The notes beneath the pieces were generated by a model. That model saw only the letters and a program-made list of their open reading frames with translations, was not told the DNA's origin and searched no databases. Shown here piece after piece: positions 22,495-25,655 of a DNA stretch of 35,373 bases. The stretch spans positions 1 through 35,373 of the forward strand of contig JANYCG010000204.1 of NCBI GenBank assembly GCA_025360385.1. The letters run 5' to 3'. This DNA comes from Burkholderiales bacterium (GTDB taxonomy: Bacteria > Pseudomonadota > Gammaproteobacteria > Burkholderiales > Burkholderiaceae_C). Every line of letters starts with the position of its first letter. Positions within the stretch are counted from its first letter, which is position 1. The position numbers were made by a program, and so were the translations under genes.

Positions 22495-23469
22495 TTACTG
22501 CGCTTGCAAATTGATCGATTTGGCAATGGCGGCACCACGGGCCGCTTCTTTTTTGTAGAAGGCATCGAGTTGCTGCAAATTCATGGGTTCAGCAATCACG
22601 GTGCCTGAGGCTTCTATGGTCTTGCGCACATCTGGGTTGGCCAGTGCGGCATAGGCTGCTTTGTGAATGGCAGCCAACGGGGCCTCTGGCATTTTGGTGC
22701 TGGCCTGCAGGCCGATCCAGATGCTGAACTGGTAGTCTTCAAATCCTTTGGTGAGGCGCGCGGGAGGCAGCTTGGGCAGGCGCGCGACCGACTCGTTTGA
22801 TGCCACTGCCAGCGCCTTGATTTGGCCACCGTCAATTGCACCCAGCACCGGGCCAACCAGCGGCACCACGGCAAAATCAATCACGCCGCCCATCAGGTCT
22901 TTCAGGTAGGGTGCCAGGCCGCTGTAGGGCGCATGCAAACCCGTGGCACCGGCGTTGTGCAGGGCTTTTTCTGCCATCAGATGGTACAAGGAGCCAATGC
23001 CAGTGGAACCAAAACTCAGGGGCTTGTCGGCCTTTTTGGCATAAGCCACAAATTCTTCGAGCGTGTTGACGGGCAGGTCTTTTCTGACGGCGATGGCAAT
23101 GTTGGTGTGGCCCACCAGGGCGGCCATGCGCATGTCTTCAGGTTTGTTTTTGGCTGCCGCAAGCCCCAGGGGGGTGTAAATCAGTTCCAGCGGCGAGCCG
23201 GCCAGAATGGTGTAACCATCAGGCGTGGCGTTTGAGGCCTTGAGCACGCCGAGTGAGCCACCTACACCCACCACGTTTTCGACAATGACGGGCTGGCCAA
23301 GGGTATCTTGCATACCTTTGCCCACCGCACGGCCCAACACGTCCGAGCCACCGCCCGCCGGGAAGGCGACGATCATCGTCAGCGGTTTGCCGGGGAAGTT
23401 CTGTGCTGCGGCAAATGGTGCCAGCGCGGCTATGCCCGTGCCCAGCAGGATGTTTATCCAGGATTTCAT
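22495..23469 (-). CDS. Bug-family (TctC-like) periplasmic binding protein
   Basis: The 324-residue protein has a Sec signal peptide (MKSWINILLGTGIAALAPFAAAQ) and the Bug fold: PLTMIVAFPAGGGSDVLGRAVGKGMQDTLGQPVIVENVVGVGGSLG, FGSTGIGSLYHLMAEKAL, HAPYSGLAPYLKDLMGGVIDFAVVPL. It is a periplasmic receptor for a carboxylate. It follows the dadA-like gene by 122 bases on the same strand and is convergent with mobA, so its ligand may be an amino acid-derived or aromatic acid. No TctA/TctB membrane genes are nearby. Confidence 0.92.
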   Translation of the reverse strand: MKSWINILLGTGIAALAPFAAAQNFPGKPLTMIVAFPAGGGSDVLGRAVGKGMQDTLGQPVIVENVVGVGGSLGVLKASNATPDGYTILAGSPLELIYTPLGLAAAKNKPEDMRMAALVGHTNIAIAVRKDLPVNTLEEFVAYAKKADKPLSFGSTGIGSLYHLMAEKALHNAGATGLHAPYSGLAPYLKDLMGGVIDFAVVPLVGPVLGAIDGGQIKALAVASNESVARLPKLPPARLTKGFEDYQFSIWIGLQASTKMPEAPLAAIHKAAYAALANPDVRKTIEASGTVIAEPMNLQQLDAFYKKEAARGAAIAKSINLQAQ

Positions 23470-23591: not shown

Positions 23592-24857
23592 CTAGCCACA
23601 AAATGCAAAGTCAACCTCGGGTGTCAGGCCGCTCACAATGCGGGCAATGCTCTTGCCCGAACCGCAGGCATGTGTCCAGCCCAGCGTTCCGTGGCCCGTG
23701 TTGAAAAACAGGTTCTTCAATTTGCTTTTGCCAATGATGGGCACATTGCTGGGGGTGGCCGGTCGCAGGCCAGTCCAAAAGCTGGCCTGTGTCGTGTCGC
23801 CCGCGCCGGGGAAGAGCTGTTCCACGCGGCGCACGATGGCCTCGCAGCGCACGCGATTCAGGTCGCGGTCGTAACCATTCAACTCTGCCGTGCCAGCGAT
23901 GCGCAGGCGGTCGCTGCCCGGTCCGGTCAAACGTGAGAACACCAGCTTGAACTCGTCATCGGTCAAGCTCACCTGATGCGCCATGCTGGCGTCTTTCACC
24001 GGCAGGGTGACGGAATACCCTTTGGCTGGATAAATCGGCAAACGAATGCCCAGCGGCGCGGCGTAGATCGGGCTCAAAGACCCCATGGCCAGCACGTAGG
24101 CATCTGCGCGCAGCCGCTGGAAGCGCCCTTCGCTGTCCGTGGCTTCCACGTGGTCGATCTGCTCACCGGCTTCGCGCAATGCCGTGATGGTGTGGCTCAT
24201 CAAAAACTTGACGCCGGACGCCTCACACAGCTTGACCAGCTCGCGCGCAAAACGGTTGGCATCCCCCGATTCGTCTTCGGCGGTGTAAGTGGCGCCGGCC
24301 AGTTGCACCCGGATGTGGGCCAGGGCCGGCTCAATTTTCACGGCTTCGTCGGCGCTGATCACCTGGCGCTCGCAGCCCAGTTCGCGCATTTGCAAGGCGG
24401 GGCCCTGTGCGCCATCAAACTCTTTTTGCGAGGTGTAAAAATGCAAAATGCCCTGCGTGCGCTGGTCGTATTGCAGGCCGGTGTTGCGGCGCAGCTCTTG
24501 CAACATGGCACGGCTGTAGGTGCCCAGGCGCACGATCTGCGCGATGTTGTGGCGCGTGCGCGCGGGCGTACATTCGCGCAAGAACTGCAAGCCCCAGAGC
24601 CACTGGCGCATGTCGGCGCGCAGCCGAAACAGCAAGGGCGCATCTTCTTTGCCCAGCCACTGCAGTAACTTCAGTGGCGCGCTGGGGTTGGCCCAGGGTT
24701 CTGCGTGGCTGACCGAGATTTGCCCGCCGTTGGCAAAGCTGGTCTCGGCCGCCGGATTCGCCTGGCGATCCACCACGGTGACGTCGTGGCCGAGTTGAGA
24801 CAAGTAGTAGGCCGAACTCACGCCGAGCAGACCGCTACCAAGGACGAGAACTTGCAT
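23592..24857 (-). CDS. FAD-dependent amino-acid dehydrogenase, DadA-like, under a glycine riboswitch
   Basis: From the ATG at 24857 the protein has 421 residues. It begins with a dinucleotide-binding fold (MQVLVLGSGLLGVSSAYYLSQLGHDVTVVDRQ), followed by TSFANGGQISVSHAEPW, typical of D-amino-acid dehydrogenase small subunits. Near the C-terminus are WTGLRPATPSNVPIIGKSKLKNLFFNTGHGTLGWTHACGSG, the FAD-binding tail. DadA oxidises D-alanine and other D-amino acids at the membrane, passing electrons to quinone. The frame continues upstream to 25034 only because the riboswitch happens to lack stops. Control by glycine suggests that glycine may be a substrate or linked signal. Confidence 0.9.
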   Translation of the reverse strand: MQVLVLGSGLLGVSSAYYLSQLGHDVTVVDRQANPAAETSFANGGQISVSHAEPWANPSAPLKLLQWLGKEDAPLLFRLRADMRQWLWGLQFLRECTPARTRHNIAQIVRLGTYSRAMLQELRRNTGLQYDQRTQGILHFYTSQKEFDGAQGPALQMRELGCERQVISADEAVKIEPALAHIRVQLAGATYTAEDESGDANRFARELVKLCEASGVKFLMSHTITALREAGEQIDHVEATDSEGRFQRLRADAYVLAMGSLSPIYAAPLGIRLPIYPAKGYSVTLPVKDASMAHQVSLTDDEFKLVFSRLTGPGSDRLRIAGTAELNGYDRDLNRVRCEAIVRRVEQLFPGAGDTTQASFWTGLRPATPSNVPIIGKSKLKNLFFNTGHGTLGWTHACGSGKSIARIVSGLTPEVDFAFCG

Positions 24858-24940
24858 TTGAGAGCCTTGTAAGTGAAGAGGCGGCATGAAACAATCGTAT
24901 TTTGCTACAAAAAAAGTAGCGTACGAATTTGCCATGCACT

Positions 24941-25160
24941 GCCGCTCCCCCTGTCCTTGGTACCTGAGAGTTTCACTGCGGTGCCACAACGGCACACAGC
25001 TTGCTCCTTCGGTGCGTTGTGCCTTGATGCTCAAAACACAACGGCTCTCCAGACGGCCTTCAACAAAAATAGGCAGTGGTGGTGACCTGAGCGTTCATGG
25101 GAGTTTGCGCCTTCGGTGGATGAAGCCAGCAATATACTGCCTCATCACTCTCCTGCCTAC
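24941..25160 (-). ncRNA. Tandem glycine riboswitch
   Basis: Two glycine aptamers lie in series in the dadA-like leader. Aptamer 1 (25157-25072) has GGCAG/CTGCC as its P1 helix, GGAGAG, CACCGAAGGCGCAA and CGCTCAGG. Aptamer 2 (about 25056-24945) has TGGAGAG, CACCGAAGGAGCAAG, ACTCTCAGG and the hallmark GGACAG. The linker is about 15 bases. After aptamer 2, GAGCGGCA (24947-24940) can pair with TGCCGCCTC (24886-24878), 21 bases before the start codon. This is a possible expression platform acting on translation. A TTTTTTT-loop hairpin GCTAC/GTAGC (24920-24904) sits between. Confidence 0.92.
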
Positions 25161-25164
25161 ATGA

Positions 25165-25193
25165 ATTATATTGCATAAACTGCAGCTTGTTAC
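25165..25193 (-). promoter_or_regulatory. Promoter of the glycine riboswitch and dadA-like gene
   Basis: On the minus strand a perfect -10 TATAAT (25170-25165) lies 17 bases after GTAACA (25193-25188, four of six -35 bases). Transcription would start near 25158, exactly at the beginning of aptamer 1. Confidence 0.7.
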
Positions 25194-25241
25194 TATCAGC
25201 TTTTATTCTTTTAATTTTTCTCAACCTTTCAGGAGACAAGC

Positions 25242-25655
25242 ATGGCCAGCAGTCCGCAAAACCCCTTCGGTGACGTCACCAAAATGCTCGAAAAATTCAA
25301 GGTGCCCGGTGTGGACATGAGCGCCATCATCGAAGCCCGCCGCAAGGACATCGAGGCGGTGGTCGAGGCCAACCAGGCAGCGATGGAAGCCATGCAGGCC
25401 ATGGGGCGCAAACAGGCTGAAATGCTCAGCGCTGCGATGCAGGAAATCCAGGAAACGACCAAGTCCTTGGCAGGCAGCGCGGGTGATCCGGCCAAACAGA
25501 CGGCCATTGCCAAAAAAGCCTTTGCCAAGGCGGTGGCCGACGTGAAAGACCTGGCCGACATGGCCCGTAAATCACAAGCCGATTCCATGGCCAGCATCAC
25601 CAAACGGGCCAACGAGCACATGGCGGAAATCAAGAAAATGATGACGCCCAAATAG
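25242..25655 (+). CDS. Phasin-family protein
   Basis: The 137-residue protein is rich in Ala, Lys and Met and almost wholly helical (MEAMQAMGRKQAEMLSAAMQEIQETTKSLAG, VADVKDLADMARKSQADSMASITKRANEHMAEI), as in the short phasins of proteobacteria. Phasins coat polyhydroxyalkanoate granules. AGGAGA lies 6 bases before the ATG. It is divergent from the riboswitch-controlled dehydrogenase and may lead a plus-strand transcript with the next genes, although the 89-base gap to the amidohydrolase leaves room for a promoter. It is not similar to phaP at 30152. Confidence 0.85.
   Translation: MASSPQNPFGDVTKMLEKFKVPGVDMSAIIEARRKDIEAVVEANQAAMEAMQAMGRKQAEMLSAAMQEIQETTKSLAGSAGDPAKQTAIAKKAFAKAVADVKDLADMARKSQADSMASITKRANEHMAEIKKMMTPK

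Follow-up and report, generated by a model that had tools for sequence, protein, structure and literature searches.

A tandem glycine riboswitch ahead of a DadA-family dehydrogenase gene in Burkholderiales, and a predicted role in glycine oxidation

Genes of the glycine regulon have been reported to function in glycine metabolism, in transport and in serine metabolism (PMC3766115). The riboswitches concerned come in ON and OFF versions, and the P5 pseudoknot is frequent in the former and absent from the latter (PMC13104608). The closest precedent for the locus described here is the translational tandem riboswitch of Neisseria gonorrhoeae gcvT, for which an OFF structure is supported by mutation and glycine raises expression; overlap with an sRNA is a further feature of that system (PMC13104608). 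Statements drawn here from the cited papers are limited to the parts of their text that were available.

Work on the DadA family bears on the other half of the arrangement. DadA of E. coli acts on glycine with a KM above 500 mM and a kcat/KM of 0.275 per M per s, compared with 5.71 per M per s on D-serine, and according to the same authors glycine use in E. coli runs through serine (PMC9436414). In engineered C. necator, dadA6 was deleted as a possible sink, and neither growth nor yield improved (PMC11879842). In engineered P. putida, ThiO-dependent glycine oxidation was negligible (PMC12421819).

A search of open-literature text found no paper joining a glycine riboswitch with DadA among the texts covered. 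The term 'dadA' is absent from the main text of PMC3766115, the regulon supplement of which may already tabulate the link. Both 'dadA' and 'D-amino acid' are absent from the main text of PMC12452182, where the related COG0665 is mentioned, in the text available, solely as thiO controlled by TPP switches in Bacillota, and term counts for 'dehydrogenase' and 'oxidoreductase' were zero in the available text of PMC6944388. PMC4710047 was set aside as a DadA paper, its 'dada' being part of the species name dadantii. The dadA target described below lies outside the two usual target groups of glycine riboswitches.

Riboswitch, promoter-like site and putatively controlled gene in the window

The window is the whole stretch of DNA analyzed, 35,373 nucleotides from a Burkholderiales bacterium. 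The features from promoter to downstream gene are as follows.

25165..25193, minus strand: sigma-70-like promoter, GTAACA (25193-25188), 17 nt, TATAAT (25170-25165); consensus scan, 10/12 matches
25165-25064, minus strand: glycine riboswitch aptamer 1; RF00504, 49.7 bits, E 1.9e-7
25062-24941, minus strand: glycine riboswitch aptamer 2; RF00504, 54.1 bits, E 1.3e-8
23592..24857, minus strand: DadA-family FAD dehydrogenase of 421 aa, the controlled gene; NCBIfam PRK00711, Pfam DAO
22495..23469, minus strand: TctC-type solute receptor gene, 122 nt downstream of dadA; Pfam PF03401

The original prediction was of a tandem glycine riboswitch before a DadA-like gene, with a promoter starting at aptamer 1. 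A covariance-model search recovered both aptamers above the RF00504 gathering score of 32 bits, each spanning model positions 1-94 of 94, and the arrangement proved to be conserved in relatives. The 4.12 Mb assembly contains no other RF00504 match at E <= 0.001, and besides these two an Rfam scan of the whole window reached no family threshold. A single nucleotide separates the two matches, and 83 nt lie between aptamer 2 and the start codon. The promoter was found where it had been placed, the last base of its -10 element being the first base of the aptamer-1 match; promoter-like sites in 24800-25300 number 2, compared with 0.3 expected from shuffles, and a scan of the same interval detected no terminator-like site. 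Transcription probably starts near 25158. Judged by its sequence, the window RNA is a typical glycine riboswitch and would be expected to bind glycine.

The target had been taken for an FAD amino-acid dehydrogenase resembling DadA, an assignment borne out by scores of 489.3 bits against PRK00711 (cut-off 383) and 226 bits against the FAD-binding domain DAO, PF01266. Glycine oxidases are the nearest PDB neighbors of its AlphaFold model (mean pLDDT 88.8), followed by iminodiacetate and sarcosine oxidases, and glycine oxidases also rank first in a sequence search against solved structures. Because the fold is common to the whole family, the substrate is not fixed by structural likeness alone. In E. 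coli the corresponding gene belongs to the dadAX operon, together with alanine racemase. The window dadA is not part of such an operon: the gene downstream encodes the TctC receptor, with which it is possibly co-transcribed, and its divergent neighbor is a phasin gene. The latter (25242-25655) starts about 50 bases from the dadA promoter, and both promoters therefore occupy one short intergenic region.

Between aptamer 2 and the start codon lie the elements of a putative expression platform.

24940..24960, minus strand: switching strand CCAAGGACAGGGGGAGCGGCA, comprising aptamer-2 J3/1, the P1 3' strand and the GCGGC linker; Rfam alignment
24904..24920, minus strand: inner linker hairpin GCUAC-UUUUUUU-GUAGC, present in both modeled states
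24872..24886, minus strand: anti-aptamer segment immediately upstream of the ribosome-binding site, pairing with 24952-24940 in the OFF state; minimum free energy (MFE) pairs
24865..24868, minus strand: Shine-Dalgarno-like AAGG, 7 nt before the start codon; sequence

In the predicted OFF fold, the switching strand pairs within 24865-24886. The MFE structure of the leader 24969-24855 contains the pairs 24947-24878, 24946-24879, 24945-24880, 24944-24882, 24943-24883, 24942-24884, 24941-24885 and 24940-24886, and thus every pair of the interaction between 24940-24947 and 24878-24886 that had been proposed from the sequence. The helix ends beside the Shine-Dalgarno element, which is mostly unpaired in both modeled states; pairing probabilities across AAGG are 0.02-0.23, with one G at 0.97, and the bound-state model changes them little. 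The effect of the bound-state model falls on the adjoining segment 24875-24879, where pairing drops from 0.62-0.95 to 0.16 or less. The folding energy of the window leader is only slightly better than that of shuffled sequences (z -1.71; 16 of 200 shuffles as good), and support for a switch therefore rests on the relatives. Among nine relatives' leaders, the MFE was 3.7-5.5 standard deviations better than shuffles for L129, L126, L184, L160 and L167 and only 0.45-1.55 better for L155, L180, L164 and L148.

Distribution of the array and covariation in its leader

We refer to the window's type of DadA as clade A and to a second, more distant type as clade B. The 80 closest of 566 DadA-relative loci were kept (82-90% identity), from Variovorax, Rubrivivax, Acidovorax, Polaromonas, Pseudacidovorax and other genera, and RF00504 is found upstream of 74 of them (by batch, 20/20, 20/20, 19/20 and 15/20). 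One of the six loci with no match, L200, has no upstream sequence, and at L176, L188, L193, L195 and L205 upstream RF00504 is absent even at E up to 1. With L209 and L107, these five make up a group of close clade-A dadA genes that lack a detectable array and could serve as natural controls for glycine induction. In a set of 30 DadA loci, 16 carry the array (61-100% identity), and the other 14 (50-76% identity), negative in the first survey, again gave none in a more sensitive scan at E up to 0.5. The array is thus missing from many remoter copies of DadA and tracks one part of the tree rather than sequence identity by itself.

The first survey returned 110 RF00504 matches outside the window, equivalent to 57 arrays. 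DadA-family genes are the target in 18 cases (16 of clade A, in 15 genomes, and 2 of clade B), and many of the remaining 39 arrays precede gcvT, as judged collectively from downstream reading frames and gcvP coordinates. Fifty further genomes contributed 16 arrays before clade-A DadA (62-91% identity to the window's) and 12 before a clade-B DadA-like protein (38-42%). The DadA array is a widespread member of the regulon, not an isolated oddity of the window genome. Two arrangements of another kind were also seen. At L046:1201-2601, in genome G008, an array precedes a gene resembling those for branched-chain amino acid ABC-transporter receptors, below the family cut-off; the same genome carries arrays at dadA and beside gcvP. 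At L162:515-619, an additional glycine aptamer match precedes the dadA array by about 700 bases.

Clade B is clearly distinct from the window's enzyme. Two of its members score 733 and 727 bits against NCBIfam PRK12409 (cut-off 494), and its loci with arrays (L222, L224 and ten alike within L214-L225, together with L062 and L063) come from genomes both with and without gcvP. A quick tree of 84 proteins, with a midpoint root and a long-branch warning, separates clade B with a support of 100 on a branch of 2.5 (14 members with the array and 2 without), and array-less DadA clades branch between it and clade A. The labels of each of the two clades are more clustered than in all 500 shuffles. Clade A does not come out as a single clean group on the tree, where its label needs at least 5 changes. 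Since a second, separate clade also carries the array, these sequences suggest that glycine control has probably been acquired at least twice by DadA-type enzymes, with several losses besides.

The candidate strands of a P5 pseudoknot lie in aptamer 1 and in the strand that follows aptamer 2.

25099..25103, minus strand: CUCCC in the P3b loop of aptamer 1, candidate 5' half of P5, assigned by complementarity only
24949-24945, minus strand: GGGAG after aptamer 2, candidate 3' half of P5, inside the switching strand

CUCCC, complementary to GGGAG, occurs in the P3b loop of 86 of the 89 parsed dadA arrays (44 of them distinct, with some genomes represented twice), in a parse that covers 138 of 144 arrays and in which some gcvT loops are probably mis-cut; a stricter earlier parse covered 58 of 91 dadA arrays and a few others. 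The partner strands of clade B are CGCCCC/GGGGCG in 7 of 13 arrays and ACCCC/GGGGU in 2 of 13. Over the 49 non-dadA arrays, with clade B included among them, the mean complementary run is 4.63, a slight excess over the 4.09 of shuffled partners (highest shuffle 4.41). L073, the third array of genome G029, has a dadA-type CUCCC loop and a GGGAGCGGC strand, and no DadA was found behind it.

In leaders of 70 nt or more, the strand formed by the P1 3' side and linker pairs 45 nt or less from the start codon in 68 of 70 cases, and the Shine-Dalgarno element itself is paired with aptamer-2 nucleotides in only 30 of 70. Covariation was scored in an alignment, A2, of 34 Variovorax-type leaders out of 75; the remainder are 17 short leaders, 12 that differ in length, and 12 that are long but of another type, to which the window leader belongs. 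Two structures were compared, both drawn from the sequences scored, and kinship inflates the values for both. The OFF structure, written by hand from the L129 fold and leaning towards the L129 sequence, has 88.8% standard pairs, falling to 29-50% when partners are slid, with changes on both sides in 4 pairs and 10 cells compared with shuffled means of 1.5 and 1.9; 9 and 0 of 500 shuffles, respectively, were as high. A local hairpin that competes for the same linker bases, taken from RNAalifold on the very sequences it was scored on, has 95.9% standard pairs (6-52% with sliding partners) and both-side changes in 4 pairs and 14 cells, compared with means of 2.0 and 2.5, values reached in 24 and 0 of 500 shuffles. 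RNAalifold itself gave partial structures only, at -2.3 kcal/mol for the 17 short leaders and, with the 34 long leaders, just the local hairpin. Across these 34 leaders there is hardly any variation in A2 columns 1-28, which hold the 3' portion of aptamer 2 and the nucleotides that follow. That two mutually exclusive helices both covary is what a switch predicts, and the translational control proposed for the window is supported by this covariation in the relatives' expression platform together with the covariance-model matches and the conserved arrangement.

Glycine metabolism and the role of the enzyme

In the 98.3% complete assembly of the window's genome, gcvP has no match and no gcvT exceeds the cut-off of 235.85; there are two weaker matches, of 143.9 and 28.5 bits, one of them a GcvT-like domain in a protein of 839 residues. 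One gcvH is over its cut-off (L094:6446-6919), located beside a short-chain dehydrogenase-like gene. No gcvP was seen in the 6.4 kb downstream of it, and the contig ends 0.7 kb upstream. An assembly gap may lie behind the missing gcvP. The window array departs from the pattern of the glycine cleavage regulon in that it sits at dadA, not gcvT.

An array precedes a DadA-family gene in all 16 of the surveyed gcvP-less genomes that keep any array (8 per sample). Within these 16, the only genomes in which the two enzymes were counted, malate synthase G is over its cut-off in 13, with fragments in G000 and G157, and glyoxylate carboligase in just 3, for which reason malate synthase is the likelier outlet for glyoxylate. 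In the first sample, clade-A arrays were present in 8 of 13 gcvP-less genomes (the window's included, and G009, 65% complete, excluded) compared with 8 of 46 with a gcvP match, split, fragmentary and below-cut-off matches included (p 0.003); adding clade B brings the latter to 10 of 46. The second sample comprised all 17 new gcvP-less genomes and 33 of the 153 new gcvP-bearing ones, taken in list order with one per genus, and DadA arrays of clades A and B were found in 8 of 17 and 20 of 33, respectively (p 0.39). Genomes G222 and G225 count as gcvP-less by elimination, every other of the 200 genomes being accounted for. The DadA array as a special mark of genomes lacking the cleavage system was therefore seen in one sample and not repeated in the other, and the claim of enrichment was dropped. 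The array is not enriched in gcvP-less genomes, yet in all those surveyed that keep one it stands before a DadA-family gene. Within the family, DadA thus seems to be a second regulon member of general occurrence, and the only one that persists after loss of the cleavage system.

With a probability of roughly 60%, we propose that the window carries a tandem translational ON glycine riboswitch that induces a DadA-family dehydrogenase oxidizing glycine to glyoxylate and ammonia. When glycine is lacking, the 3' part of aptamer 2 (J3/1, the P1 3' strand and the GCGGC linker) would pair just 5' of the Shine-Dalgarno element and, in part of the relatives, the pairing would cover that element as well, so that little enzyme would be made. 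Glycine binding would fold the tandem aptamers; P1 would then retain the strand, as probably would a P5 pseudoknot formed with the aptamer-1 CUCCC loop, and the ribosome-binding site would be free for the start of translation. The glyoxylate produced would enter metabolism via malate synthase G. We only infer the ON direction and the ligand, because the Shine-Dalgarno element is mostly open, the fold is weak and aptamer 2 outscores aptamer 1, which has been listed as a trait of OFF versions (PMC13104608). Glycine would likewise be the physiological substrate of the window DadA.

Two ideas had been offered at the outset, namely that the enzyme oxidizes glycine and that glycine merely signals an excess of amino acids. 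Of these, glycine oxidation appears the better supported, because two DadA clades have arrays, the window's genome is without gcvP and without a gcvT over cut-off, and C. necator DadA6 has been called a glycine oxidase. The results cited above for E. coli DadA, for the dadA6 deletion and for ThiO in P. putida count against it, as do the D-amino acid name of the matching profile and the lack of enrichment in gcvP-less genomes of the second sample. A riboswitch of this class before a gene named for a D-amino acid dehydrogenase, seen throughout a large bacterial group, suggests that the enzyme really burns glycine. A broader proposal, to which we would give even odds, is that clades A and B are dedicated glycine-induced glycine dehydrogenases, independently recruited, forming a glycine-glyoxylate-malate route beside the cleavage system and remaining the sole riboswitch target where that system has been lost.

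Excess glycine competes with D-alanine in peptidoglycan, and the controlled gene might encode an ordinary D-amino acid dehydrogenase, acting mainly on D-alanine, for which glycine is only a signal of amino-acid surplus or cell-wall stress. The PRK00711 profile that the protein matches above cut-off bears the name of that activity, in E. coli the enzyme favors D-amino acids and acts very poorly on glycine (PMC9436414), and genomes that have retained glycine cleavage show the arrangement just as often. We regard this explanation as unlikely, since two separate DadA clades are glycine-controlled and several others in the same bacteria are array-less, glycine riboswitch targets are mostly glycine enzymes or transporters (PMC3766115, PMC13104608), DadA6 of C. 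necator is called a glycine oxidase (PMC11879842), and removal of D-alanine would, by our reasoning, aggravate glycine stress.

The direction of control can also be questioned. Among the 31 clade-A arrays in which both aptamers match, aptamer 2 is the higher-scoring one in 28 (hand count), a pattern described for OFF versions (PMC13104608), and glycine would then lower DadA expression. The same order is found in 24 of 28 non-DadA arrays of the same family with both matches (also counted by hand) and is thus no clear mark of an OFF switch; in clade B it is reversed, aptamer 1 outscoring aptamer 2 in 14 of 14 arrays (hand count). Glycine-bound aptamer 2 would moreover sequester the very strand by which the ribosome-binding region is closed, and the P5 strands, absent from OFF versions (PMC13104608), are present in nearly all parsed dadA arrays. 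An OFF switch is on this evidence improbable. Least credible of all, and in our view very improbable, is a degenerate leftover or a variant aptamer for another ligand, exerting no glycine control. Of the 74 loci with a match, only 40 have both aptamers at or above the gathering score, and the seven close relatives named above have no array at all, but the window aptamers match all 94 positions at 50-54 bits, and the aligned leaders hardly vary from the 3' portion of aptamer 2 through the strand that follows.

If clades A and B are indeed glycine dehydrogenases, the annotation 'D-amino acid dehydrogenase' would be misleading in many Burkholderiales genomes. The genes placed under glycine riboswitches show what counts as glycine metabolism for a cell, and arrays at two DadA clades suggest a directly testable function for enzymes that have been labeled by a broad profile. 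The arrangement points to a glycine-oxidizing route in bacteria without a glycine cleavage system, and it bears on engineered glycine pathways, where DadA6 has been deleted as a possible glycine sink.

Comparison with described systems

The dadA array shares its tandem aptamers, conserved core and candidate P5 strands with the ON-type RF00504 riboswitches at gcvT of B. subtilis, Burkholderia and Neisseria, and in both settings the downstream gene encodes an enzyme that acts, or here is presumed to act, on glycine (PMC13104608). The difference lies in the target, here a single DadA-family flavin dehydrogenase and not the cleavage system or a transporter. The likeness to N. gonorrhoeae gcvT extends to the OFF structure predicted at dadA, in which, as at gcvT, bases of the aptamer-2 pocket and P1 pair with the region just 5' of the start codon (PMC13104608). 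ON behavior has been measured at that gcvT, whereas at dadA it is predicted, and the Variovorax-type dadA leaders differ in adding a covarying competing hairpin in the linker.

On the side of the enzyme, the nearest likeness is to C. necator DadA6, compared by family and name: a DadA-family enzyme of the Burkholderiales that is called a glycine oxidase (PMC11879842, PMC12421819). A glycine riboswitch is unmentioned in the available text of either paper, and a plasmid search for DadA6 itself yielded only matches below 60% identity. The riboswitch of Pelagibacter glcB provides a parallel of a different kind, since there, too, glycine controls glyoxylate-linked metabolism outside the cleavage system (PMC2211319). 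The two cases stand at opposite ends of the same metabolite: the enzyme controlled in Pelagibacter uses glyoxylate (PMC2211319), and the one controlled here would be expected to make it.
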